Part shown: piece by piece, positions 771 through 45,808 of the stretch
Numbering within the stretch: position 1 is the stretch's first letter
Layout: every line of letters begins with the position of its first letter
Assembly (NCBI GenBank): GCA_902779075.1
Contig: CACZAK010000025.1
Span: 1-50,026, forward strand
Source of the DNA: an uncultured bacterium
GTDB lineage: Bacteria > Verrucomicrobiota > Kiritimatiellia > RFP12 > UBA1067
Length of the DNA: 50,026 nt
Direction of reading: 5' to 3'
Translations under genes and position numbers: made by a program
The notes under the pieces: generated by a model
The model's input: the letters and a program-made list of their open reading frames with translations, nothing else
The model's database searches: none
Told to the model about the DNA's origin: nothing

Positions 771-2060
771 TTAAGGTTTGAGAGCCGAGATCGGGCATAC
801 GATTATGCCGTCTTCCTTACGTCTATACGCAAACTCGCCTGTAGCCGTGACAACCATCATGAATGTCGGAGGCGTCTTCTCCTTTGCCTTTACAAGGGCC
901 GCAAGCTTATTCAAGGTTCGAACGCCTTCCTCAACCAGTGTCTCGCCTCCAAGTTTGATTTCCGCAAGGGCATACGCTCCAGACCACGTATGCATAACGG
1001 CATCGCACTCAAGCCCGGTCTTGTCGTGGTAATGGCGAACGCTACCGTCAAGCGCGTCCATGTAGATTCTCAAGTCTCGTATCACCATACCTTCAAAGAA
1101 GAATCCGAATGAACGCAGATCGTTCATAAGACCGTCTGGAGTAACACCAAGTGAGGCCGTAGCTATGGACGGATCAGTGAAATACCTTGTGTCAGACGTG
1201 CGGACAGTATCTTTCGCGCGCAACTCGGGACACCAAGCGGACGCATCCTCAATTACAAATATCCCCTTGAGTGCCTTCAGATACGAATGGATCGTGTCTT
1301 CGGAAAGACTGCGGTCGTCATGCTGCATCATGTCCTTGCGGATGGACGCCACGCTTGCCTGCGTCCCCTGCAAGCGCGCATAAGACCGCATGAGATTCCG
1401 CACGCGCTCTGGATCGCGCGGGATGTCGTCGAACCGCGATATGTCGCTTTCGACAACTGCCCGACAGTAGTCGCGCACCAGACGCAACGCCGAAGCTCCT
1501 GACCGGTCAACAGCCAGAGGCCATCCTCCACGACAGATGGAGAATGCCGTTTCGGACAGTTTCCGTTCCAATGCACGTGCAACCGTGAAATCCTGTTTTG
1601 CGAACAATGCCGCAATGCTGACCTCGCCCGACGACTCGCCTGACTCCCAAAGACTCATTGGCCTCATCTTCAGCCACGAATACCGCCCTGTCCCTGAGTG
1701 TCGTATCTTCTTCTTGCTCTTATCGGGGATAACCGAAGAACCCGTGAGGAGATATTGCCCCATGCCATCCCGATGATCAACCTTATGGCGGATGGCGTCC
1801 CAAAGTTCTGGAATGTCCTGCCACTCGTCAATCAATCGCGGTGTCGCACCTTCAAGCAATTGGTCTATTTCCGTCTCCGCAATGCGAAGGTACTGCCCAC
1901 GATACTTGGGATCGGATAGGTATATAAAACTCTTCGCCTGACGTTCACATGTCGTGGTTTTGCCGCACCACTTCGCACCCTCAAGCACGACTGCGCCAGA
2001 AGATTCCAGCCTCTCGGACAAAATCTCATCCAACACTCGATTTCTGTACTTCTTTTCCAT
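771..2060 (-). CDS. AAA_14-DUF4143 ATPase with PD-(D/E)XK nuclease-like domain, copy 1
   Basis: This is a 429-residue protein. Walker A GAKWCGKT is at 28-35 and Walker B LIDEW at 76-80; a winged-helix-like stretch follows at about 225-275. The C-terminal DUF4143 part carries a PD-(D/E)XK-like pattern, with D353 in GLECD, then E367-I-K369 in AEIK. I chose the ATG at 2060 because a consensus promoter (2071-2099) ends just upstream, and because this start matches the length (428) and N-terminus of the paralogue at 10347-11633. A longer frame from 2114 would begin upstream of the promoter. Family members are common in mobile or accessory DNA and their function is unknown. The gene sits between the ROK kinase and the isomerase as if inserted there, with its own promoter and repeat array. 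Confidence 0.85.
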   Translation of the reverse strand: MEKKYRNRVLDEILSERLESSGAVVLEGAKWCGKTTTCERQAKSFIYLSDPKYRGQYLRIAETEIDQLLEGATPRLIDEWQDIPELWDAIRHKVDHRDGMGQYLLTGSSVIPDKSKKKIRHSGTGRYSWLKMRPMSLWESGESSGEVSIAALFAKQDFTVARALERKLSETAFSICRGGWPLAVDRSGASALRLVRDYCRAVVESDISRFDDIPRDPERVRNLMRSYARLQGTQASVASIRKDMMQHDDRSLSEDTIHSYLKALKGIFVIEDASAWCPELRAKDTVRTSDTRYFTDPSIATASLGVTPDGLMNDLRSFGFFFEGMVIRDLRIYMDALDGSVRHYHDKTGLECDAVMHTWSGAYALAEIKLGGETLVEEGVRTLNKLAALVKAKEKTPPTFMMVVTATGEFAYRRKEDGIIVCPISALKP

Positions 2061-2070
2061 AAGCGCGTAG

Positions 2071-2099
2071 ATTATACCATATTTATGGTCCTTCGGCAA
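2071..2099 (-). promoter_or_regulatory. Sigma70-type promoter of ATPase copy 1
   Basis: Read on the minus strand, a TTGCCG -35 (2094-2099) and a perfect TATAAT -10 (2071-2076) are separated by 17 nt. Transcription would start about 4 nt before the ATG at 2060, giving an almost leaderless mRNA. The repeat array begins 6 nt upstream of the -35. Confidence 0.75.
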
Positions 2100-2105
2100 T
2101 GCCTC

Positions 2106-2216
2106 ATTCGGCAATTCGGACGATTTTCATTCGGCAATTTGGACGGTTTTCATTCGGCAATTCGGACGAGTTTCGTTAGGGCGACTTGGACGGGTTTCAT
2201 CCGGTCATTTGGCTAT
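2106..2216 (-). repeat. 23-bp tandem repeat (iteron-like) array upstream of ATPase copy 1
   Basis: On the plus strand three 23-nt units follow head to tail at 2106, 2129 and 2152 (core ATTCGGCAATTYGGACG, then a T-rich end). A degenerate 24-nt unit follows at 2175 and a partial fifth at 2199. Units differ at only a few positions. The array ends at the stop codon of the ROK kinase gene and lies directly upstream of the ATPase promoter, a natural place for an operator or a binding site of the encoded protein. Confidence 0.85.
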
Positions 2217-6203: not shown

Positions 6204-9200
6204 CTACTTGACGATGATTATGAATCCGCTCTGGAGATAAAGTCCGTCGGACTTTTTCACAAGGCAGTAATTGCGCTCTCCTTCGGCGCGCTTGAACGTT
6301 ACGTTTGCTGGCTTGCTCGCCCACGCGATGAGCTGTCTGCTGGACGGAGCACGCAACTCGCCCAGCCTGATGCTGACCGTCGCGCCGTCGGCAAAGTCGA
6401 TCTTGTTCTTCCCGCTCGTGAAGGCTGATGTCTCGTTCAGCGTCTTGACCCTGCCCAGCTCGTTCGTGCGCGAGGTGAAGTCGATGGTCGATCCGTCCTG
6501 CAATGTGCAGCCGTAGAAGTAGTTGTGCGCCGACGGCTTGAACGTGCCATGTACGTTGAACGCCGCATCACCGCCATTGTTGTTATAGGCGTACACCGGC
6601 TCATAGTTGCGCACCGACATCGGGCCGTAGATGCGCAACGCGCAGCCCACGCGGAAGTCCGCGTTCGTAGCCGTCACCGTCTTGTCGCTCTTCGTCTCCA
6701 GCCATCCGCCGGACGCAACGTCCATCAAGCCGTTCTTAACCGTGGTGTTGTATAGCCAGAACTGGCTACCGATATTCACCGTAAGCGCGTGTCCGCCAAG
6801 GTCGAGGACCGTGGCAGCATAGCTGTCGCTGATGAAACCGTATGTGTTCGCGGGGGCGATCTCGGAATCCGCAGTCAACTGCACGGATGCCAACTGCGAA
6901 CTGCCGTTACCTACGTGCCCGCCAGTGTTCTGAAGCTTGCCGCCGTCCAGGACAAAATTGTATTTGTAGAAGTAAAATTTCGCATTCGTGTCGAGTGTAC
7001 CTTTGTTCGCGCCGTTCGTCGAAATCGTCACGTCGCCGAACGTATCGCCGAGGGGATAGTCCGATCCGTTGAGGCCGCACTTGAGAAGCCCCTCTCGAAC
7101 GGTCGTGCCGCCGACGTAGGACTGACCGGACTTCGATGCGACGTACGTGCCCGTGCCGTCCTTCACGACCTTCATGTTTCCGGTGAACGCCACAGACGAG
7201 TTCTCCAGCGTCTTGCCCGACGCCACGTTCAAATGCAGCTCGCCCGAACGGTCGTTGTCGTATGCGGCCCACTTCTCCATCAAGTACCGCGTCACGGTCT
7301 CGCGGTCAGAGTCGGAAAGAACAGAGGAGTAAAGGATCACCTCGCAGAGCTGCCGCCCGCCAGTGCGCTGCTCGGTCGAGGTGCGGTCCTTGGAGAGGCA
7401 ATTGGACGAACTATTGCCCTTCATCTGAAGCGCAAGCACCTGGAAAGAGTCGTCAGGCAAAACGTCAGACGTAATGTTCTGCACCTGTGTCAGCCCGTTC
7501 CAAATCGCGCCGACATTGGCTCCTCTGTAAATGTATATGCCGTTGTCGCCTCGATGGAAATGATAGCTGGTTCCATCATCGCCGAGATAGAAAGCGCGCT
7601 GCGCCAGCTTTGCCACCATGAACACAGTTCTGATGTTGCTGAAGCGCGTATAGGTCATGTCAACCCCGTTGTTATAGTCTCCGAAGTCCACGCACGGGCG
7701 ACCATACTTGTACCGGCGATAGACCGGCTTTTTGCTAGTGTTGCGCACGGTGGCAACGCGACGATCGCCGGCCTTTGAAGTCCATGTCGTGACGTTGCCA
7801 CTCGCATCCTTGACGATTGTAGATTCATCGGCGGCGTCGAGCCAGAACATGGAGCTTTCTGTCACAAGTGACGGCGCGGTCGGTGCGCAGCCGTAGGTAG
7901 ATGTGATCGTCCCGGCGCTTGAGAGTCCCGTGAGCGTGAGGTCGTGTCCGTTCAGGTCAATTGTGCCGGTAAGCGTGTAGTTCGCGCCAAGCCCGCTCCA
8001 GTCGCAGTTGCTCGTGAGGCGCACGTCGTCGATTATCACCTTGTAGCTGTTAAGCGGATTTGCGGCGACAATGTCGCAGTTGACGTTGCCGCAGAGGTGC
8101 GTCGTCGCCTCCGAACCGGGAACAGCATCCGTCACGACATACCCCGCCGCGTTGGTGCAGGCCCAGTTGCCGGGATCGGCGATATTGCCGTTGCCCGCGT
8201 CGCCCGTCCAGTACGCGACGAACACGGTGCGGTCAGACGGATCCGCGCCGTAGTAAAGGCCCGTGTTCGCAATCACGGGCGCAACGCCCTGCTGCGCCGT
8301 ATCGTCGTCGAACACGAACGTCACGTTCTCGGGCCGTGCCGTCCACGCGATGATCTGGTCGCCGAGGGCGAACGTGCGCCCATGCACGTCAATCTTGACC
8401 GTTGCGCCGGAAGCATACTCCACCGTTTTCTTGTAGTTGGCGTCCGCGCCGCCCGTGGAGTTCCATACGCCGTCCTTGAACGAAAGGTCAATCGTCGAGC
8501 CGTTCTGCATCGTGCATCCGTAGAAGTATGTCGAATTCGTCGGCGCAAACGTACCATAGACGTTCAGCGCGCCCGATCCCGTGCCGTGCTGGTATGAATA
8601 CTTCGCGAGGTAGTTGCTGACGTTCAGCGTTGCCGAACTGTCAATGCGGAGTGCGCTGTTCACGCGGAGATCGGCCGCCCTGAAATCCATCGTCCCCGTT
8701 GTGAAAGAGAACGTTCCGCCGCTCACGACATCCACCACGCCGTTCGAATAGGTGCAGTTCCCATTGTGGTAGGCGTAGGCACCGCCGGCATAGAGTTTCA
8801 CGGTCAACGTGTGGCCGCCAAGATCCACAAAGACCACACCTCCATCGGCTGCACACATGGACGTGTTGGACTGGAAGTCGAATGTGGAGTCTGCGGTGAG
8901 CCTCACATTGCGTAGGCCGCCTTGTCCGGCACTCTGCGAACGCCCGGTATTGCGCACCGTGCCGCCGCCGAGGACGATGTCGTAGTCGCCGAGCTGATGT
9001 ACACCGTTCATTTCAAACACCGCGTCCGCCGTCACCGTGATTACGCTTCCGCGCCTGCCGAGCGGACTGTTCCAGCCGGCGAAGGCGTTGTCGTTGTTGT
9101 TTACGGGTTTTGGCAGGATGAGAGTACCGCCGGAAATCAGAGTGCCGCCGTTGTAGAACTGACCTCCTGTCTTGCCCATTGTGAACGTGCCGGGGCCATC

Positions 9201-10190
9201 CTTGACAAGACGCACGTTGCCGGCGATCGGGACGGTCGTATTGACGGACGATGCGTTTTCCGCCACATCAACGTGAAGTTCGCCCAGCGTTGGCACCGCG
9301 TCGTATGCGGCCCACTTGTTCTGGAGGTATGTCGTCACCTCTTCGCGCTGCGCATCGGTGAGCGTGGTAGAGAAGAGGATGATTTCGCATATCTGCCGCC
9401 CTCCGGTACGATGATTCACGTTCTGGTTGTACCTGTCACCGGCAAGACAGTTAGACCTGCTTGCCGACTTCATCTGTACCGCAAGGGTCTGGAAAGAGTC
9501 GTCGGGCAGAACCGCCGTCGTGACATCACCGACGTCATCAAGGCCGTTCCACGCCTTGCTGATTTGAGAACCTGAATAAGCGTACTTGCCGCTGTTACCA
9601 CGATGGAAATGATACACATCGTTGTTACTGTCCCCCAGAAAGAAGCCCTCCGAGTTGATCTTGAAAACGAAGAATGCCGTCATGACGTTGCTGAACTCCG
9701 TGTAGGACATATCGACACCGCTGTTGAATCCGCCGAAATCAACGCACGGACGACCGTATGCGAAGCGTCTATAGACTGGCTTTTTGTTCGCATCGCGCAC
9801 GGTGGCCACGCGCTGGTCGCCGGCCTTTGACGTCCAAGTCGTGACGTAGTCGCTCGCATCCTTGACGATCGTCGATTCGTCGGCGGCGTCGAGCCAGAAG
9901 ATCGCGCTTTCGGACACGATCGACGGCGCTGCGGGTGGCGTGATGCCGTAGTCGGACGTGATCGTGCCCGTTCCGGCGATGTCCGTCACTTGCAGGTTGT
10001 GTCCGCGCAGGTCAAGGGTCGCGCCCGCCTCGACGGTGACGGTGCCAAGCCCGCGCCAGTCGGCGTTCGCGTCAAGCACGACATCCCCTGTAATATTCGT
10101 CGCCGCCCACGACGGGATTGCCGCTGCTACGCAGATTACCGCAATCGCGGCGAGTTTGCTACACGCTGATTTGCTTTTAACTGTTTTCAT
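6204..10190 (-). CDS. Giant exported protein with duplicated LamG-like/beta-helix halves and C-terminal GFIIIVK
   Basis: This is a 1328-residue protein starting at MKTVKSKSACSKLAAIAVICV, a clear signal peptide ending near SWA. I preferred this ATG to the one at 10226. The protein has two homologous halves. Each begins with an FWLDAADESTIVKDAS block in a LamG/concanavalin-like region that contains a YGRPCVDFG motif. Each continues into glycine- and threonine-rich repeats (GGTLISGGTLI, GGTTVREGLLK) typical of autotransporter-like beta-helices. The protein ends DGLYLQSGFIIIVK. The same ending recurs at 13342 and in a remnant at 33734. A surface adhesin or glycan-binding role is inferred from architecture only. 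The promoter at 10245-10274 shares an operator-like block with the XylR-like regulator gene. GH92 follows 27 nt downstream. Confidence 0.75.
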   Translation of the reverse strand: MKTVKSKSACSKLAAIAVICVAAAIPSWAATNITGDVVLDANADWRGLGTVTVEAGATLDLRGHNLQVTDIAGTGTITSDYGITPPAAPSIVSESAIFWLDAADESTIVKDASDYVTTWTSKAGDQRVATVRDANKKPVYRRFAYGRPCVDFGGFNSGVDMSYTEFSNVMTAFFVFKINSEGFFLGDSNNDVYHFHRGNSGKYAYSGSQISKAWNGLDDVGDVTTAVLPDDSFQTLAVQMKSASRSNCLAGDRYNQNVNHRTGGRQICEIILFSTTLTDAQREEVTTYLQNKWAAYDAVPTLGELHVDVAENASSVNTTVPIAGNVRLVKDGPGTFTMGKTGGQFYNGGTLISGGTLILPKPVNNNDNAFAGWNSPLGRRGSVITVTADAVFEMNGVHQLGDYDIVLGGGTVRNTGRSQSAGQGGLRNVRLTADSTFDFQSNTSMCAADGGVVFVDLGGHTLTVKLYAGGAYAYHNGNCTYSNGVVDVVSGGTFSFTTGTMDFRAADLRVNSALRIDSSATLNVSNYLAKYSYQHGTGSGALNVYGTFAPTNSTYFYGCTMQNGSTIDLSFKDGVWNSTGGADANYKKTVEYASGATVKIDVHGRTFALGDQIIAWTARPENVTFVFDDDTAQQGVAPVIANTGLYYGADPSDRTVFVAYWTGDAGNGNIADPGNWACTNAAGYVVTDAVPGSEATTHLCGNVNCDIVAANPLNSYKVIIDDVRLTSNCDWSGLGANYTLTGTIDLNGHDLTLTGLSSAGTITSTYGCAPTAPSLVTESSMFWLDAADESTIVKDASGNVTTWTSKAGDRRVATVRNTSKKPVYRRYKYGRPCVDFGDYNNGVDMTYTRFSNIRTVFMVAKLAQRAFYLGDDGTSYHFHRGDNGIYIYRGANVGAIWNGLTQVQNITSDVLPDDSFQVLALQMKGNSSSNCLSKDRTSTEQRTGGRQLCEVILYSSVLSDSDRETVTRYLMEKWAAYDNDRSGELHLNVASGKTLENSSVAFTGNMKVVKDGTGTYVASKSGQSYVGGTTVREGLLKCGLNGSDYPLGDTFGDVTISTNGANKGTLDTNAKFYFYKYNFVLDGGKLQNTGGHVGNGSSQLASVQLTADSEIAPANTYGFISDSYAATVLDLGGHALTVNIGSQFWLYNTTVKNGLMDVASGGWLETKSDKTVTATNADFRVGCALRIYGPMSVRNYEPVYAYNNNGGDAAFNVHGTFKPSAHNYFYGCTLQDGSTIDFTSRTNELGRVKTLNETSAFTSGKNKIDFADGATVSIRLGELRAPSSRQLIAWASKPANVTFKRAEGERNYCLVKKSDGLYLQSGFIIIVK

Positions 10191-10244
10191 GGCTCTTGTT
10201 CCTGTTTTCGGTGGCGCCAACGACAATACGCGCCTTTGCCAGGT

Positions 10245-10302
10245 ATTTTACCAAACCCGCCGTCTGACCTTCAATTGCACAATCCTAAAATCCGATTGCA
10301 CA
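10245..10302 (-). promoter_or_regulatory. Promoter with 21-bp-spaced direct repeats upstream of the 6204-10190 gene
   Basis: On the minus strand, TTGAAG (10269-10274), 18 nt and TAAAAT (10245-10250) form a promoter. On the plus strand, two half-sites CAATTGCACA (10272-10281) and CGATTGCACA (10293-10302) are direct repeats exactly 21 bp apart, overlapping and abutting the -35. The 58-nt block matches 13013-13070 at 50 positions. Confidence 0.7.
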
Positions 10303-10346
10303 ACATCGGCTACAACAAGGGTGCCATGTACGGCAGATTGAACGCA

Positions 10347-11633
10347 TCAAGGCCTCAGACATCCAATAGGGCAAATCAGCGTCCCGTCAGGCTCCTCGTA
10401 CGCGAATTCTCCTTCGGCAACGATTATCATCTTAAATGTCGGCTCCTTCATCTGCTTTGTGTCGATCTCGCCCGCAAGACGGTTCAGTTTCGACCTCCCA
10501 TCAGCGATAAGAGCCTCTCCGCCGAGCTTCACCTCTATGAGTCCATACCTCCCATCCCTCAGATGCATCACGGCATCGCACTCAAGACCGCTCTTGTCCC
10601 GATAGTGGCTGACCTTGCCGTCATTGGCAGCCGCGTATGTCCGCAGGTCTCTGGCGACCAGAGTCTCGAACAAAAGCCCGAAGGTCTTCAAGTCGTCCAT
10701 CAGGTTGGCGGGGCCGAGGCCAAGCGCCGCCGTGGCGATTGACGGGTCTGTGAAATACCGGGTGTCGGCCGTCCTCACCGGCGTCTTGCAACGCAGATTT
10801 GGGCACCACGCATGCATGTCCTCGACAACAAATATCTTCTTCAATGCGCCGATGTATGAATAAATGGTATTCTCGTGAACGCCTCCCTTTGGCGCGTTCG
10901 GCGCAAGATCGGCCCTGATTGCCGCAACGGACGACTGCGTGCCCTGCAATCTGGCAAGCGATTTCATGATCCTCAACGCAAGGTCTGGATCGCGAAGTAC
11001 CTCATCGACTCGTGAGATGTCGGTGTTGACAATCGCATCGACATAATCAAACGCCTGACGCAGAGCGGCCTTTCCGCTTTTGCCAGTCGCCCTCGGCCAT
11101 CCGCCACGACATGTCAGGTACGCAATTTCCTCAAGTGTGTATGGTTTCGCGTCGCCAAGCACCCGTTTCCCGGCAAACAAATCGGCAAACGAGACACTTC
11201 CCGATGATTCCAAACTCTCGAACAGGGCCATGGGACGCATCCTTATCCACGCGAAACGTCCAGTTCCCGAATGGCTTATCTTTTTCTTGGACTCTTCATC
11301 CAGTGGCACGGCACTTCCCGTAAGGATATACTTACCGTCTATGTCGGAATGATCGACATCAAAGCGAATCGTATCCCAGAGCTCCGGCGCCCTCTGCCAT
11401 TCGTCAATCAGTCGAGGATTCGCACCAACAAGCAATCGTTGCGGATTCGTCTTAGCCGTCATAAGATACTGCTCGCGACGCTTTGGATCATTCATGTAAA
11501 TGACACTCTTGGCTGTCTGCTCCGCAGTAGTGGTTTTTCCACACCACTTTGCGCCCTCTATAAGTACAGCTCCTTTTGCTTCCAACGCATCACGAAGGAT
11601 CGTATCGAAAATTCTATTTTTGTAGTTTTTCAT
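10347..11633 (-). CDS. AAA_14-DUF4143 ATPase with PD-(D/E)XK nuclease-like domain, copy 2
   Basis: This is a 428-residue paralogue of the protein at 771-2060, alike along its whole length. Walker A GAKWCGKT is at 27-34 and Walker B LIDEW at 75-79. The C-terminus has GLECDAVMH followed by IEVKLGGE, the PD-(D/E)XK-like pattern. The ATG at 11633 lies 7 nt after a TATAAT box, so the mRNA is probably leaderless. The cassette (array, promoter, ATPase) is wedged between the XylR-like regulator and the operator-bearing promoter of the giant protein gene, which would otherwise be neighbours. This supports insertion as a unit. Function is unknown; a nuclease-associated, selfish or defence role is inference. 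Confidence 0.85.
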   Translation of the reverse strand: MKNYKNRIFDTILRDALEAKGAVLIEGAKWCGKTTTAEQTAKSVIYMNDPKRREQYLMTAKTNPQRLLVGANPRLIDEWQRAPELWDTIRFDVDHSDIDGKYILTGSAVPLDEESKKKISHSGTGRFAWIRMRPMALFESLESSGSVSFADLFAGKRVLGDAKPYTLEEIAYLTCRGGWPRATGKSGKAALRQAFDYVDAIVNTDISRVDEVLRDPDLALRIMKSLARLQGTQSSVAAIRADLAPNAPKGGVHENTIYSYIGALKKIFVVEDMHAWCPNLRCKTPVRTADTRYFTDPSIATAALGLGPANLMDDLKTFGLLFETLVARDLRTYAAANDGKVSHYRDKSGLECDAVMHLRDGRYGLIEVKLGGEALIADGRSKLNRLAGEIDTKQMKEPTFKMIIVAEGEFAYEEPDGTLICPIGCLRP

Positions 11634-11640
11634 GGCCGAT

Positions 11641-11670
11641 ATTATATCATATCCTCACACCACACGTCAA
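11641..11670 (-). promoter_or_regulatory. Sigma70-type promoter of ATPase copy 2
   Basis: On the minus strand TTGACG (11665-11670) and a perfect TATAAT (11641-11646) are separated by 18 nt. The -35 lies 5 nt from the repeat array, almost the same layout as ATPase copy 1. Confidence 0.8.
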
Positions 11671-11675
11671 TACCA

Positions 11676-11767
11676 TTGTGGAACTTGGCGCATTTTCGTT
11701 GTGGAACATGGCGTGTTTTTGTTGTGGAACTTGGCGCGCTTTTGTTGTGGAACGTGGCGCATAACTG
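11676..11767 (-). repeat. 23-bp tandem repeat (iteron-like) array upstream of ATPase copy 2
   Basis: Four consecutive 23-nt units start at 11676, 11699, 11722 and 11745, each beginning TTGTGGAAC and containing TGGCGYRT before a T-rich end. The period and position match the array of copy 1, but the unit sequence differs, agreeing at only about half the positions. There are no unique spacers. Confidence 0.9.
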
Positions 11768-11791: not shown

Positions 11792-13012
11792 CTACCGGCG
11801 GGCGTTGTTCTGCCCGCGCCAGGACTCGGCGGTGAGGCCGGTATCCGCCTTGAACACGCGGCAGAAGTACTGGGCGGACGCGAAGCCGGAGCGGGCGACC
11901 ACTTCGGCCACGGAAAGCGTCGTGTTCGCCAGCAGCCTCTTCGCCTCCGACAGCCGGCTCTCAATCAGCTCCTGCTGAACCGTGCGCCCAAGTGCCTTGT
12001 GGAATCCCTCCTCGACCATCGGAAGCGACTTGCCGACGAATGCGGCAACGTCTTCCGCCGTAAGCCGTTTCTCGACATTCCTTGAAATGTACACGAGCGC
12101 ATCAGAAATCCACTTCTGCGCGAAGGCGTACGTCTCGGTTGACCGGCGCAGGCTGACTTCGCCAGGCTGGACGCGGATGGCCGGGGGATTCTTCCGCGCC
12201 GCTTTCGAGCGCATCATCCGCGAAAGCACCGCCACGGCCGCCGCCCCCACGCGGTGGCCGGAATTGTCAATGGAGGAAATGGACGGAGCCACGAACGAGC
12301 ACACAAGCGGATCGTTGTCCACGCCCAGCACGGCGAGACCATCCGGAACGGCAATGTTTTCGCTCCTGCAGATGCAAAGTACCTGATAGGCCCGTGTATC
12401 GTGGCAACAGAACACCGCTGTGCGCGAAGGCAGCCCCTTGAGCCACTGTGCGAGGCTGCGCGCGTCGGTGCCGAGAGTCACGTCCTCCCTGCGCGTCACG
12501 CGAGCATCGTATTCCGCAAGGGCTCGGCGCGGCGTCTTGAAAACCGAGCATGGAAAGTAGTGTTCCTTCAGTATGGCGGCAAAGGCATCGCGCCGTTCGT
12601 CCGAATAGTTATAGCCCTCGTATCCGCAGTAGGCGAAGGAGGTGAAACGCCGCGCCAGAAAGTGTTCGGCTGCCTTTCGCCCGATTGCCGCCTGGTCGCC
12701 ATCGACGGAACCAAACTGAGGATAGCGCTTGTTGCAGAACACGTCCACCACCGGAAGCCCGGATGCCGTAAGCCTTTGGGCCATTGCATCGTCAACCACG
12801 CGGGCGATCACGCCGTCGAATCCGCGAAGCGCCTTTGAACGCTCCAGGGAATCGGCATCAACAAACTCAAGCGCCCAGCCGTCCTCGCGCAACGCCGCGT
12901 CGGCAATGCCGCAGCAGAGCTCGCGTCCATAGGCGCGATCTCTTTCCACGATCACGGCGACCCTTGTATCTGTTCGCCGCTCGCCGACATGTTCTTTCTG
13001 TGTCACGGGCAT
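11792..13012 (-). CDS. XylR-like transcription regulator (LacI-type sensor plus AraC DNA-binding domain)
   Basis: Residues from about 15 to 285 form a periplasmic-binding-protein-like sugar sensor (TRVAVIVERDRAYGRELCCG; later LAVLGVDNDPLVCSFV and SSIDNSGHRVG, typical of XylR-type regulators). Residues about 300-400 are an AraC-type double helix-turn-helix (LSVAEVVARSGFASAQYFCR). The -10 box of the likely promoter (13013-13018) touches the ATG at 13010-13012, so translation more likely begins at the GTG at 13006 on a leaderless mRNA. AraC-type proteins commonly bind direct repeats about 21 bp apart. Such repeats occur in this gene's own promoter and in that of the giant protein gene, suggesting autoregulation and control of that gene. 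The ligand is unknown. Confidence 0.85.
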   Translation of the reverse strand: MPVTQKEHVGERRTDTRVAVIVERDRAYGRELCCGIADAALREDGWALEFVDADSLERSKALRGFDGVIARVVDDAMAQRLTASGLPVVDVFCNKRYPQFGSVDGDQAAIGRKAAEHFLARRFTSFAYCGYEGYNYSDERRDAFAAILKEHYFPCSVFKTPRRALAEYDARVTRREDVTLGTDARSLAQWLKGLPSRTAVFCCHDTRAYQVLCICRSENIAVPDGLAVLGVDNDPLVCSFVAPSISSIDNSGHRVGAAAVAVLSRMMRSKAARKNPPAIRVQPGEVSLRRSTETYAFAQKWISDALVYISRNVEKRLTAEDVAAFVGKSLPMVEEGFHKALGRTVQQELIESRLSEAKRLLANTTLSVAEVVARSGFASAQYFCRVFKADTGLTAESWRGQNNARR

Positions 13013-30300: not shown

Positions 30301-31150
30301 ACAAGCGTACAACAGCAAGGTCGCCACCTTGTTGTTGTACGCTTGTTGTTTTCCCCCATCCCGCCCCGCCTTGTTGTTGTACGCTTGCTGTCTTCCCACA
30401 TCCCGCCCCACCTTGTTGTTGTACGCTTGCTGTCTTCCCCACGATCTTCCTCGTCACGCCGCCGAAGACTCGGTTCGAGAGCAGATCAGGTTTTCCGAGA
30501 TCGCCCGTCGCCTGATAGTAGTCGTAATACTTCATCATCTTCGCGACCGTCTCGTTCCGGTTCACGTGGCACCACCCGCCCGGCACGAGACGGTCGGCGT
30601 TGATCGTGAACGTGATCGGCTTGCCGTTTTCCGTCGCGCCGTCGAACTGGTTACCCAATCCACTTGCGCCGTACTGCTTTGATGAGGCAAACTCCTTTGA
30701 CCCGCCGGGGTAGAGACGCCAGTTGACGACTTTCGCCTCGACGTCCGGTGCACCCTTCACGTCGCACACGGCGATCGAATCCGTCCCCTGCTGGATGCGG
30801 TATCGCAGCGACACCGCCCGCCCGCCGCTCTTCCACGACGCCTCGAACTCGCCGCGCTCCATCGAGAGTTCCTGCCGGTACGTGCCCTCATCGACGGGCG
30901 ACTTCGTCTCGTAGTCGATTGCGCCAGTCTTCACGTGGCGTCCGCCCTCGTTCCACGAATCGGAGTTCTGAAGTACGGTGTGCAGCGTGCCGGCGGCGTC
31001 CAGCCACGCCATCGCGCCGACCTCGCCGTTGCCGAGCACCATCATGCCCTTCTCGTCTGCTGCCGGCGTGTCGAACACGATCGGTGCCGGCGCGTACGCA
31101 AGGGCAATTGACACGAGGCCAGCGGAAGCAATTAATGTTTTGATCTTCAT
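24368..31150 (-). CDS. 2260-residue three-module glycosidase (DUF5703/GH95-like, GH95-like, GH42-like)
   Basis: Signal peptide MKIKTLIASAGLVSIALAYA with AAGGA upstream. Module 1 (to about residue 940) is a (alpha/alpha)6-type glycosidase related to GH95/DUF5703 with an inserted LamG-like domain (IGVDSKGGNRFLGTF). Module 2 (about 950-1605) begins SSWDDGIPLGNGSAGALIWG and carries CSPEVGGNGNSCFLNANSSY and HRHPSHLIQVFPL, as in GH95 fucosidase/galactosidase relatives. Module 3 (about 1610-2260) looks like a GH42-type TIM-barrel beta-galactosidase relative with candidate acid NGPCGEHF and nucleophile FIDEGDD. RLDAAISAAAMCMAPLTA at the start of module 3 looks like a former signal peptide, so the ORF may result from fusion of three exported enzymes. 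A 42-bp repeat (30298-30441) is translated in module 1. Confidence 0.75.
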   Translation of the reverse strand: MKIKTLIASAGLVSIALAYAPAPIVFDTPAADEKGMMVLGNGEVGAMAWLDAAGTLHTVLQNSDSWNEGGRHVKTGAIDYETKSPVDEGTYRQELSMERGEFEASWKSGGRAVSLRYRIQQGTDSIAVCDVKGAPDVEAKVVNWRLYPGGSKEFASSKQYGASGLGNQFDGATENGKPITFTINADRLVPGGWCHVNRNETVAKMMKYYDYYQATGDLGKPDLLSNRVFGGVTRKIVGKTASVQQQGGAGCGKTASVQQQGGAGWGKTTSVQQQGGDLAVVRLLSSDVPSRTLFLTAITCLHPCKDEAEWLRRTNDMLDRDGWTIDGEEAKRAAHIAAWRSFWDRSHIDVTPSDAAKNAPRKPYALPTNDKLPLSIGVDSKGGNRFLGTFVSAEVELDGKVLYSGVPKVGDTVARSTRDSRDGNAFRFACTFMTDRFEKPQRLLDNATPGRGDGFLVDVLNGQIRLIAGHNWFTHPTKLRAGRKTAIEVVVSRNGIAKIVVNGVPLERAFGAASVTDECAAITLRYAAQRYLNGCTGRGRLPIRFNGSLFTMTHKGDPDYRQWGHGYWWQNTRLPYYTMFASGDLDMLQPLFNMYCGLIDFNVKRTRKYLGHGGAYFPECMQPWGDHFLSVYSANRFLQYEKGAWKDRTDKLQLSGWHKYEWVGQLELSLMLLRYYAFTQDDAWLKTKALPSVREYVRYFDEHYKLDANGRYLMHPAQATEMWWNCTNPMPEIAGLTCVTEMLLALPKGALSEDDRALFAKIRARIPELPTRKLGGKVAFAPADKFASRHNLETPELYCVFPFRLCSFEKPNVEIGRHSYREGRMYKLYHGWAQDEVNAAYLGMTEEARVHIAGRALTHSKNIYRWPAYWGPNFNWCPDQDEGGIFLSTIQSMLMQYEGDKIFLLPAWPKDWNCDFKLHAPKNTTIEGRVENGELKDLVVTPASRRKDVLIMRDNYDGESLLDLVAPVSSWDDGIPLGNGSAGALIWGGGNTLNVTLDRADFWHNIWPTCCDSPNFTWDMLVDTVTKKDDGRRKEIFDKGDSATKLPGVRFVLKLGKGQSLRRFRLDGATASATVTVATPSGDRDIVAWFDDGDTLLSMRVPDGVTFDSKVFVKNPSFAELGGYPEPEIAIDDGKAVYRRLRRKGADNRFDRDFESGVRFRPACDAPRSAFWPKFNAESEVSIPDPKLQRLYDFAIYLYGAGARAGCAPLALQGLWTADDGKLPPWHGDYHNDLNTEMTYWAAGPAGCVEALEAFADFYIERLPECREFCRKIFKGGDGAVIPPTMGYAAQPILGWTAYTLPPIHGIWAFNTFCDAWDYDPTPEKAAKYLAFGRELAAGLEHSWKVVDGVRKLTLSCSPEVGGNGNSCFLNANSSYERAILDSFYVWLSRLAEACGNADETVKWRSYVGTFGPPNVTKDGTLEISAGNPLKDSHRHPSHLIQVFPLTNVPCENGVDFVKSVEWWEGLGTGLWVGFSFPWAGCFEARLGRGDRAYRYLKDFARAFTARNGFNVNGDQLKCGLSRFTYRPFTLEANFGYARGIQEMLLSYDPHSNTYRLFPALPKEWDGKEVSFRNLRLPGGHRVSAKRAADGTITHEIVPNPRARSVPRLDAAISAAAMCMAPLTAPGAGWRVAELNGAPGLYHDGKPVAAMMFWQWEPQEKDSRDLSAAGMDIFAMFGSFPHYKHPYWRKDGSFGMEYQDSHIDKLLSWAPKASVLPRVFYTAPDWWSVANPGERHVYATPKKGAPARESFASLKCREELSPYYRRAVRHLMDRYGDHLMGIHVANGPCGEHFSWDVMLGGAARSGSSWGDLSEPMRQAFVLYLRTKYGNDVARLRDAFKDPKADFASVTLPGKEERCKSQDGWRDPAKGRRVLDYLECCNEVTAEMIDHYCGIVKDESKGMLPTLAFYGYVADDEWVCENDHRGISKMYLSKNLDMLSAPHTYKRRRLGEDGMQRQYLASAALHGKFFIDEGDDMTHLEKLKKHPDRRCTVNTMEESLALLYREFGMTVTHGTGLWYMDLTRGTFRDPQLVDAVGRMRKWSEVALRHDRSHHSEVAVISQPQSGFYTGQGGRFVGTVTQQLYVKQMGEFYRAGAPFDWYLAEDLDAVVKGKAKVVAFLDCQYLTDEQYALALKLKEQGRTLVFFHAPAYASQTALSWERVKRLTGGETYETLKMKSADELRAIYKAAGVHVYTDSDVVLSANSAWLMLHTREAGDYEIALPRRVRKITEITTEKPVAENADRFTWKLPKHSTAVFLLEH
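30298..30441. repeat. Inverted repeat plus three 42-bp direct repeats inside the giant glycosidase
   Basis: Arms of 23 nt (30298-30320 and 30327-30349, one mismatch) face each other around a 6-nt loop. The right arm begins the first of three 42-nt direct units (30327, 30369, 30411). On the minus strand they encode KTASVQQQGGAGCG, KTASVQQQGGAGWG and KTTSVQQQGG, staying in frame because 42 is divisible by 3. Confidence 0.9.
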
Positions 31151-43157: not shown

Positions 43158-45808
43158 TCCGGACCTCCGATTCCAGCTGCACGTAAGACCACTTTTCCCT
43201 CGCGCCCCACGAGAGCGAAAGCCTGTTCCTCAACGCGCGCTCGCGCATGCCGCTGAGTCCGTAGTGCCCCGTCTCGGGGCCGAGCGCGCGGTCGACCTCG
43301 AACGGCGTTCCGTCGTTCAGGACGCGGAGGACGAATCCTCCGCCCTCTCGCGGATCGCACGTGAACACGATCGTCTTGGCGTGCCCGTGCTTGATCGCGT
43401 TCGTCGTCGCCTCTTGAAGAATCAGAAGGATGTCCTGCCGCTCGGCCTCGTGGACATTTTCAGGCAGCCCCCGCAGAAGGCAGCGCGTGCGGACGCCGGC
43501 CTTGGCGAGATTCTTTGCCATCTGGACAATCGACTCGTCCAGCGTCTGCGCCTCCATTCCCACGCTCCTGAGGTTGAGGACGGCGCTGCGTACCTCCAGC
43601 TTGGCGTTCGCGAGAAGCGACATCAGGCATTTCATCGCGTCCTTGACGTTTTCCGGCGTTCCCTCGAGCTGCATGACGCTCGCCGCGAACAGGTTGGCGC
43701 CGGCGAGATGCTGCTCGATCGTGTCGTGCAGATCCGCGGCCATGCGCCGCCGTTCCGCCGCGACGACCTCGGCCTCCCGCCTTGCACGCACGATGCGGAG
43801 CCACAGCACCAGCAGGACCGCCGAGACGCAGACGAGAATGCCGCCTAGAACGATGGCGGCGACGAGCAGCATGCGCCAGGCGCTCCTGCCCCGACGGAAC
43901 ACGATGTCCTCGGCCTTTTCAACCTCCAGCAGGGAATCAACCCGCTTGCCGTCCTTGAACACGGCGCGCGCAAGCCCCGTGACGCGGACGGGCTCGCCGA
44001 CAATGTCGCCGTCCGCACCCCACGGGATCCTCACCGTCGCCGTGTAGCCGTCCATCAGAAGCAGCATGTCCGCCGCGCGCCCGCCGCCCGACGGACGAAC
44101 CTCGCGCACCGTTCCCTCCAGCGTGACGACGCGCCCGTCCAGAAGTCCGCGCCGGTAGTCCACCTGTTTCGCGACACGCGGCGGCTTGACGTCCTCGACG
44201 CGGAGGATGTCCACGGACGTCGCGTTGAGCGACACGGCGTCGTTTCGATTTGTCGTCACGCCGGAGACGAGCACGACCGCGCCGCAAGTCAGATCTGGCA
44301 GGAAATACCGGTTCGTGTACCTGAGAAGCGATTCCCGGCGCGCGACGTTCTTCGCAAAGCCAGACTCCGTCGGCGCGCCCAGCCCAAGCGGAGAGAACGA
44401 CGCGACGGACGCGATCTCGGCCGCCTTCAGCGCGTTGACGACCGTCTTCCAGTCGCCGCCGTACAGCGGTTCCGCCCACTCGCGCCAAAGCGCATCCACA
44501 TCCTCGCCGGGATTCCACGAAAGCTGCCGCCAGACATGGAGGTCCACGGAGTTGAGCCGGTCGGAAAGCGCCGCATATCCGTCCCGCTTGTACGTGCCCG
44601 CGTAGAGCATCACGCCGCCTTCCGGCGACACGAGATCCTTCACGCGCGCGAACTGCCGCGCCGTCTGCGCGACGACCGGCGCGGGGAAGTACTGCCTGCC
44701 GACGGTCTGCCCGGTGATCTGCCATTCGGCGATGTCGCGGCGCGGCGCGACCTGCAGAAGCGCGGAGAACGGCGGATTCGGCTGGCAGTCGGCGTTGTAG
44801 ACCTTCGTCTGGAAGAGGACGCCCGTCCCCGCCGTGCGCATCGCCTCACCCCACACGGAAAGCGGCTCGCCGCTCGGTCCGCCGTAGCCCGGCGCATGGA
44901 CCCACTCGTCCCCAAGCCAGTGCGACGCGCCGCTCGACCAGGTGCGGACGATGAGTTTCTTCTTGAGCGGCTTCAACGCGTCTTCCCACGCCTTGACCGC
45001 GAACGCGACTTGACGCCCCCAGTTTCCCGCGAATCCGTTCGCCTTGCACCGGTCGCAGACGCAGTTGAGTCCGTAGTCGTCCCACAGAGAGACGACGACA
45101 CCGACCACCTCCGGCACGGCGATCTCGCGCACGGCTTCGCCGAAGAATGCGGCCGTCGCCGCGTCGCTCGGACAAAGCGTCCCCTTCTCCCACGACTTCT
45201 CCGGCGACACGCCCTTCGCGGACGGGTGCGCCGCGACGAACTCGTCGTACCGCGCGCGGTTCCACTTTGCGGCGTCGCATCCGTACAGGAACGAATACGC
45301 ATCCACGCCAAGTGCCGCACATTCGCGGAGTCGCCTCGCATTCGGGCGTCCACGCTTGAAATAGACAGCATTCGCGCCGGTCGCCGCGATCCAGTCGCGC
45401 AGCGGCTCCGGCGAACGGCTCACGTCCAGCGCACGTGTCTTGAAATGCGGATCGCGCACGAACAGGTAACTCCTGGCGTTCATCCAGCGGTTCGACTCGT
45501 AATTCGCGTAAAGGAACGCCCGCGCAGTCTCTGCCTTGACGACAAACCTTACCCGTTCCCCATTCCCCGTTCCCCGTTCCCCATTCCCCATTCCCCATTC
45601 CCCGTTCCCCATTCCCCGTTCCCCGTTCCCCATTCCCCGTTCCCCGTTCCCCATTCCCCGTTCCCCGCCTCTCCACGATATACCCATCGTGCTTCAGCGG
45701 CAAGCCGGCGGCGAGCTGGTAAGAAACCAGCTCATTCGCGCCGGCGGCAGACGCGGCGAACAACGCGACAAGGACGAATGCCTTTTTTCTTTCTATGAAG
45801 TCCAACAT
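43150..45808 (-). CDS. Sensor histidine kinase split by a heptanucleotide array (candidate phase-variable gene)
   Basis: ATG 45808 starts a signal peptide MLDFIERKKAFVLVALFAAS, continuing to LPLKHDGYIVERR. There the frame enters a 112-nt heptamer array and leaves it one base out of register. The remaining frame (RVRFVVKAETARAFLYANYE to 43150) holds a periplasmic domain like glycosidase relatives (VVSLWDDYGLNCVCDRCK). It then has an OB-like region, a membrane segment (MLLVAAIVLGGILVCVSAVL), and the HisKA_3 box ERRRMAADLHDTIEQH. The ATPase motifs are LQEATTNAIKHGHA and GHYGLSGMRERA. Without the 112 nt the sequence reads exactly IVERR-VRFVVK. With 16 copies the gene is out of frame; 15 or 18 would be in frame. 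A TAAACT box ends 7 nt before the ATG. Confidence 0.8.
45555..45666. repeat. Sixteen perfect (A/G)TTCCCC heptamers inside the sensor kinase
   Basis: Sixteen consecutive 7-nt units, differing only in A or G at the first base, follow without interruption. The array contains no stop codon in any frame on the coding strand (readings GNGER, MGNGEWG). Each copy changes the frame by one. Confidence 0.95.

Follow-up and report, generated by a model that had tools for sequence, protein, structure and literature searches.

Iteron plasmid Rep proteins bind tandem repeats beside their own promoter, restriction-modification systems time a nuclease through controller proteins and C-boxes, an operator at the system's own promoter, and type III toxin-antitoxin loci carry tandem repeats ahead of a nuclease gene. 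Here we describe a single-gene cassette that resembles the iteron plasmids in having tandem repeats by its own promoter, which would be bound by its own protein, but which differs from them in lacking a Rep domain, in lying on chromosomal contigs and in encoding ATPase and nuclease domains. Unlike in the restriction-modification controllers, a single polypeptide would combine the roles of regulator, ATPase and nuclease, and residues of its nuclease domain co-vary with the operator. In contrast to type III toxin-antitoxin loci, the promoter of the cassette sits after the array.

The protein itself belongs to a catalogued family. It matches the PADLOC model PDLC04790 (PDC-S01; E 4.6e-61, residues 1-392) and shares with PDC-S01 the HMM family (Pfam AAA_14 + DUF4143), the single-gene organization and the combination of an ATPase with a PD-(D/E)XK domain; AAA_14 and DUF4143 are the only Pfam domains found, with no Rep initiator domain among them. 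According to the available text of PMC12988326, PDC-S01 was identified by guilt-by-embedding, is the fourth most common defence across prokaryotes, and belongs to a set of candidates (PDCs) for most of which validation is pending; in the accessible part of PMC13356809 it is the most frequent individual locus among the rumen MAGs surveyed. The cis array, the protein-repeat code and the cassette boundaries are absent from the descriptions searched, as far as the available portions of these sources extend. The open-access literature searched (preprints being outside its scope) yielded neither a mechanism for PDC-S01 nor a published description of the array or its link to the protein. The preliminary description of this DNA had called the element undescribed, which holds for the array and its protein link but not for the protein family, already listed as a candidate defence gene.

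Two cassettes in one window

The window, i.e., the whole stretch of 50,026 nt that was analysed, contains two such cassettes. Their features are as follows, all on the minus strand.

10347..11633 (-): cassette 2 ORF, a 428-residue AAA_14 + DUF4143 ATPase-nuclease (PADLOC PDC-S01)
11641..11646 (-): putative -10 element TATAAT of cassette 2, with the ATG 7 nt downstream
11665..11670 (-): putative -35 element TTGACG of cassette 2, with an 18-nt spacer to the -10
11675..11762 (-): cassette 2 array, 23-bp tandem, unit bases 12-14 CAC
11675-11689, 11698-11712, 11721-11735 and 11744-11758 (-): the four array cores of cassette 2
771..2060 (-): cassette 1 ORF, 429 residues, PDC-S01 family, D at the position equivalent to N255
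2071..2076 (-): TATAAT, putative -10 of cassette 1, with the ATG 10 nt downstream, read by eye
2104..2174 (-): cassette 1 array, 23-bp tandem, unit bases 12-14 CCG, with further degenerate units upstream

In cassette 2, TRF places the array at 11676-11762 (period 23, 3.8 copies, score 125), and a second repeat search finds four copies at spacings of 23, 23 and 23. Four copies of the 15-base core lie at 11675-11758, and one further match in the window, with 2 mismatches, at 8817; these five matches compare with 0.08 expected, and none of 100 shuffles reaches five. The predicted TTGACG-18-TATAAT promoter (11670-11641, minus strand) matches at 11 of 12 positions, and 42 nt separate the array edge from the ATG. 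The arrangement first proposed, four 23-nt units by this promoter with the start codon 7 nt beyond it, is thus confirmed at these coordinates.

Cassette 1 has the same layout, with three exact cores at 2106-2167, a PDC-S01 match of E 2.2e-59, and 43 nt (TRF edge) or 45 nt (core edge) between array and ATG. The two repeats match at 12 of 23 consensus positions in register, in agreement with the earlier estimate of about half. The description of the proteins as close paralogues was too strong: they are 57% identical over 429 aligned positions, whereas other genomes encode proteins 86-89% identical to protein 2, and the nearest relative of protein 1 within the homologue set gathered here reaches 61%.

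ATPase and nuclease residues are conserved throughout the family, as expected of an AAA ATPase joined to a PD-(D/E)XK nuclease; the predicted active-site residues D353, E367 and K369 are kept in 259, 259 and 261 of 261 sequences. In an AlphaFold2 model (pLDDT 92.6), residue 255 lies at the start of the second helix of a helix-turn-helix (HTH), and residues 343 and 347 lie beside the predicted nuclease active site. Fold neighbours are STAND/NLR-like and the nuclease domain is McrC/Card1-like; the archaeal STAND-like ATPases SSO1545 and PABY2304 (2fna, 2qen) share 16-19% sequence identity with the cassette protein.

The array and its promoter across the family

Homologues were collected from whole genomes and contigs, 303 records giving 261 distinct proteins with usable upstream DNA; 47 matches were excluded, namely 32 duplicates, 8 partial sequences, 5 whose upstream DNA was short or contained N, and 2 that lacked a stop codon. 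When the strongest tandem period within 220 nt upstream was sought, it was 23 in 215 and 46 in 26, i.e., in 241 of 261 homologues, and neither in the remaining 20. The array score lay at or above the 99.9% quantile of shuffles in 238 of the 261. Control DNA taken 300-520 nt ahead of the ATG behaved differently: 211 of 248 stretches had no period above the cut, and 23 was absent from the 15 commonest periods listed. Arrays were present in 92/100 Bacteroidales, 91/99 Verrucomicrobiota, 43/49 Clostridia, 6/6 Actinobacteria and 6/7 Bacilli, the groups being assigned from the originating search and record titles, and all 19 further genes from outside the earlier set also had one. Orientation was alike in 182 of 190 arrays. 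Comparison across the family shows the period and orientation of the array to be nearly constant.

At loci of other DUF4143 subfamilies just one in 20 reaches the 23-bp threshold (L320 and L322 having little or no readable upstream DNA), and we take the array to mark a subfamily for this reason; a 23-bp array universal across DUF4143 was considered and rejected on the same count. By eye, some of these loci (L303-L322) have other promoter-side repeats, with periods of 22 (L312), about 33 (L319 and L316) and about 35 (L310), and palindromes lie on the promoter side in L303, L305 and L306. Operators at the own promoter may be a theme of the DUF4143 superfamily. One scan of viral contigs with the cassette protein, its scope being closer relatives, found no relative.

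The conserved core of the unit covers roughly positions 3-17 (137 non-redundant arrays). In Verrucomicrobiota, 44 of 52 arrays have a promoter call between them and the gene, and in 41 of these 44 the -10 starts at 43-47. The -35 starts fall at unit positions 19-24 and, in one case, 27, and since they range in this way the -35 is not base-fixed to the array; exact phasing of -35 and array in this group was rejected. In Bacteroidales, a TAnnTTTG (-7) box occurs within 60 nt after the array in 51 of 63 cases, against 4.7% of shuffles, and within 75 nt in 53 of 63. Measured from the array, these boxes are spaced in steps of roughly 11 bp, starting near 23, 33, 44, 55, 66 and 80 with few outside (19, 27). 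The phasing (n=53) gives R 0.78 at 11.3 bp against a jitter-null maximum of 0.45, and falls to R 0.67 at the canonical 10.5 bp; with redundancy reduced at 65% (n=18), R is 0.81 at 11 bp and 0.62 at 10.5 bp. The distance from array to ATG shows no comparable phasing (R at most 0.27). Of the TATAAT-like boxes read by eye in 19 Clostridia arrays, many begin at 24 or 45-46.

The comparison shows that the array adjoins the predicted promoter of its own gene and, in Bacteroidales, is helically phased with it. From this phasing we infer that an array-bound protein would act on the promoter along a single helical face.

Co-variation of protein and repeat

Three stretches of the cassette 2 gene bear on what the protein may recognize.

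10869..10871 (-): codon N255, predicted start of the HTH recognition helix; co-varies with unit bases 12-14
10593..10607 (-): codons 343-347, on a hairpin of the nuclease domain; H343 co-varies with unit base 5 and K347 with bases 3-4
10527..10577 (-): codons 353-369, with the PD-(D/E)XK residues D353, E367 and K369

Mutual information was computed on 174 of the 238 arrays, 64 being left out for unsure register or identity below 42%, with the register set with help of protein neighbours. The highest values link residue 255 to bases 13, 14 and 12, residue 347 to bases 4 and 3, and residue 343 to base 5. Expressed as effective sequence numbers, D255 goes with CCG (24.9 of 29.6), K255 with GG (14.5 of 14.8), P255 with AA at bases 13-14 (9.4 of 10.4) and N255 with CAC (4.4 of 11.4); K347 goes with GC (36.3 of 45.2), H343 with C (66.1 of 73.7) and Y343 with A (10 of 10). 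Both window cassettes fit, N255 with CAC in cassette 2 and D255 with CCG in cassette 1.

Relatedness was controlled with 83 disjoint protein pairs at 55-97% identity, such pairs not being fully independent on a tree. Residues 255, 347 and 343 each ranked top among 417 columns for their own bases. Counting pairs in which both differ, the residue only, the repeat only or neither, residue 255 and bases 12-14 gave 26/2/16/39 (Fisher p 1.4e-8), residue 347 and bases 3-4 gave 14/2/17/50 (p 7.1e-6), and residue 343 and base 5 gave 3/1/4/75 (p 0.0015). At identities below 55%, 44.8% of the 1220 pairs that share residue 255 also share the triplet, against 1.9% of the 7503 others. D255 accompanies CCG in 30 of 39 Verrucomicrobiota and in 20 of 22 Bacteroidales.

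The code is loose: the triplet differs despite the same residue 255 in 16 of the 83 disjoint pairs, and several triplets accompany N255 and E255. In the 19 fresh genes, with the register set without the tested bases, the residue 255 rule was right in 9 of 12 scored cases, CCG being the common triplet and all three misses having D255. The residue 343 rule was right in 15 of 16, a weak test because H343 was present in every scored gene and C is the usual base. Distal and proximal units differ in triplet type in the composite arrays of L354 (G543:C18), L052, L053, L055 and L025; no intact gene follows that of L354.

Comparison across homologues shows the specificities of protein and repeat to be coupled at residues 255, 347 and 343. 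The earlier idea of a family of modules with co-diverging protein and repeat specificity, to be looked for by aligning proteins against repeats across genomes, is supported by this residue-specific signal. Since the few residues expected to touch DNA change along with the repeat letters, the protein appears to read the array.

Based on these comparisons, we consider it probable that the cassette is a single-gene nuclease module whose protein binds its own array and regulates itself. The ATPase-nuclease would bind the array directly, with about one protomer per 23 bp and its HTH and nuclease hairpin on one face of the DNA, and a cooperative, probably ATP-dependent multimer would form there. Such a multimer may contact or block RNA polymerase and so control its own transcription, most likely, as a guess, by repression. 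A potentially toxic, sequence-addressed nuclease would in this way be held in check until its ATP state, a trigger or competing DNA frees it. The PDC-S01 family thereby gains a candidate cis partner, a promoter geometry and a protein-DNA code that can be read in part, which together make its function directly testable, as they supply probe DNA, residues to change and a prediction of insulation between paralogues.

A rival reading, to which we give a little less than an even chance, is that PDC-S01 is a defence nuclease recognizing invading nucleic acid or a phage trigger, and that the array merely sets its dose. The PADLOC match given above, the discovery of the family by guilt-by-embedding (PMC12988326, available text), the STAND/NLR-like and McrC/Card1-like folds and the intact active sites are all consistent with it. 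The surroundings point the other way: neighbours at 16 loci (75 of 107 ORFs scanned) are mostly non-defence genes, and ten ORFs of the window give no PADLOC hit. Among the 25 of 47 matched PADLOC families listed, four of the 75 ORFs match PDC-S01 and single ones match the DRT3, mads_3 and PDC-M64 models; in Pfam, the neighbours are mostly metabolic among the 25 of 56 families listed. Moreover, a defence nuclease of this kind has no need of a co-evolving address to its own DNA.

Cassette boundaries and mobility

Beyond self-regulation, the boundaries of the cassette raise the matter of movement. Two features beside cassette 2 are needed here.

11792..13012 (-): neighbouring regulator, Peripla_BP_3 + AraC-type; relatives carry it without the cassette
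10244..10302 (strand not assigned): a 59-bp stretch with 88% identity to the DNA directly ahead of the regulator homologue in genome G001, and the likely target promoter region for the next gene

DNA homology to relatives 77-80% identical (L004-L007, L037) spans at most 10345-11763, from stop codon to array edge. In gapped alignments of 65 pairs with proteins 86-99% identical (overlapping in members and with flanks of varying length, 179 nt and up), neither flank is common to 46. In these 46 the block of homology stops close to the last base of the stop codon, from 22 bp short of it to 18 bp past it, and in most cases starts within the array. At least one flank is common to the other 19, among them L252/L185, L176/L177 and L097/L103, and such pairs thus occupy the same site or have a second array in common. 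The comparison shows array, promoter and ORF recurring as one unit at unrelated sites.

Empty sites accompany these ends. The regulator by cassette 2 is present without the cassette in G001 (96%), G014 (89%) and G016 (88%), with another gene beyond it in G001. In the Prevotella group, the two neighbours of a homologous cassette lie 102, 306 and 115 nt apart without it in G1098, G1045 and G1058, and G1079 holds an 80% copy of that cassette elsewhere, with homology from array start to stop codon. The view of the cassette as an insertion, for which a look for empty sites had been proposed, is supported by both sets of genomes, and the likeness of 10244-10302 to the G001 region fits the suggestion that cassette 2 separates a regulator from its likely target promoter. 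In G014, the same interval (L324, about 2700-2900; G014:C94) spans 188 nt, contains no gene and includes two stretches of inverted repeat (TCTGTAAAAT...ATTTTACAGA). In G016, a different ATPase gene occupies the cassette's place by the regulator (L325, 1-1500; G016:C61), as if at a hot spot.

Arrays also occur apart from the usual position. A second array of the same unit and orientation lies 2-160 bp after the stop codon in 14 of 206 genes (L172, L182, L185, L200, L027, L068, L133, L245, L246, L248, L252, L253, L264, L266); in L068 the copy after the stop runs on into the promoter, as judged by eye. Searching 54 genomes with a two-unit pattern produced 43 matches, spread over 21 of them, and none with the reversed control. 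Nine of these sites had no listed gene, and of six inspected, five lack an intact gene (L337, L344, L346, L353, L354) and one (L348) is cut by a contig end. The array of L344 (G007:C165) is followed by just the last 26 codons of the gene, which has the look of an internally deleted cassette.

These observations invite a second reading, in which the cassette is selfish and mobile, its protein cutting or pairing DNA at an array that is both element end and operator. We regard it as possible but unlikely. Defined ends and empty sites, as in DNA transposons, are both found, and the flanks that differ in 46 of 65 close pairs, the homology that stops around the stop codon, the second arrays, the five arrays without an intact gene and the co-variation of residues near the nuclease active site are what such an element would leave. 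Against it, none of six inverted pairs links both ends of the window cassette as terminal inverted repeats would, no target-site duplication was resolved, the flanks of empty and filled sites being too diverged, and no excision was seen. Transfer followed by divergence of the flanks could also give clean ends, and a flank is common to 19 of the 65 pairs. Taken to its fullest form, the proposal is that the cassette is a categorically novel type of minimal mobile element. One STAND-like ATPase-PD-(D/E)XK protein would address its own cassette via a co-evolving array, operator and element end together, and would diversify by paired residue/triplet switches; we advance this tentatively and think it rather improbable. 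If true, such switches would let several copies share one genome without cross-talk.

It is very unlikely that the array is instead the source of an RNA antitoxin or guide in the style of type III toxin-antitoxin loci. Tandem repeats directly upstream of a nuclease gene would suit this reading, but it is disfavoured because a promoter sits between array and gene (the call in 44/52 Verrucomicrobiota arrays, the -7 box in 53/63 Bacteroidales), and the unit bases track predicted DNA-contact residues. Least credible of all is that the two cassettes are a recent duplication with drifted repeats, which the preliminary description had itself named as a refutation, or that an unrelated host factor uses the array as its operator: layout and spacing are alike in both cassettes, but proteins elsewhere that are 86-89% identical to protein 2 have its triplet while protein 1 is only 57% identical, which contradicts recent duplication, and repeats track residue 255 across phyla.

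The self-regulating module remains our preferred reading of both cassettes. Elsewhere in the window, the long ORF at 6204-10226 contains an internal duplication (9300-10015 against 7257-7960, 68% identical), and two more tandem repeats at 45552-45667 and 30324-30440 (7/21 bp and 42 bp) are unrelated to the cassettes.
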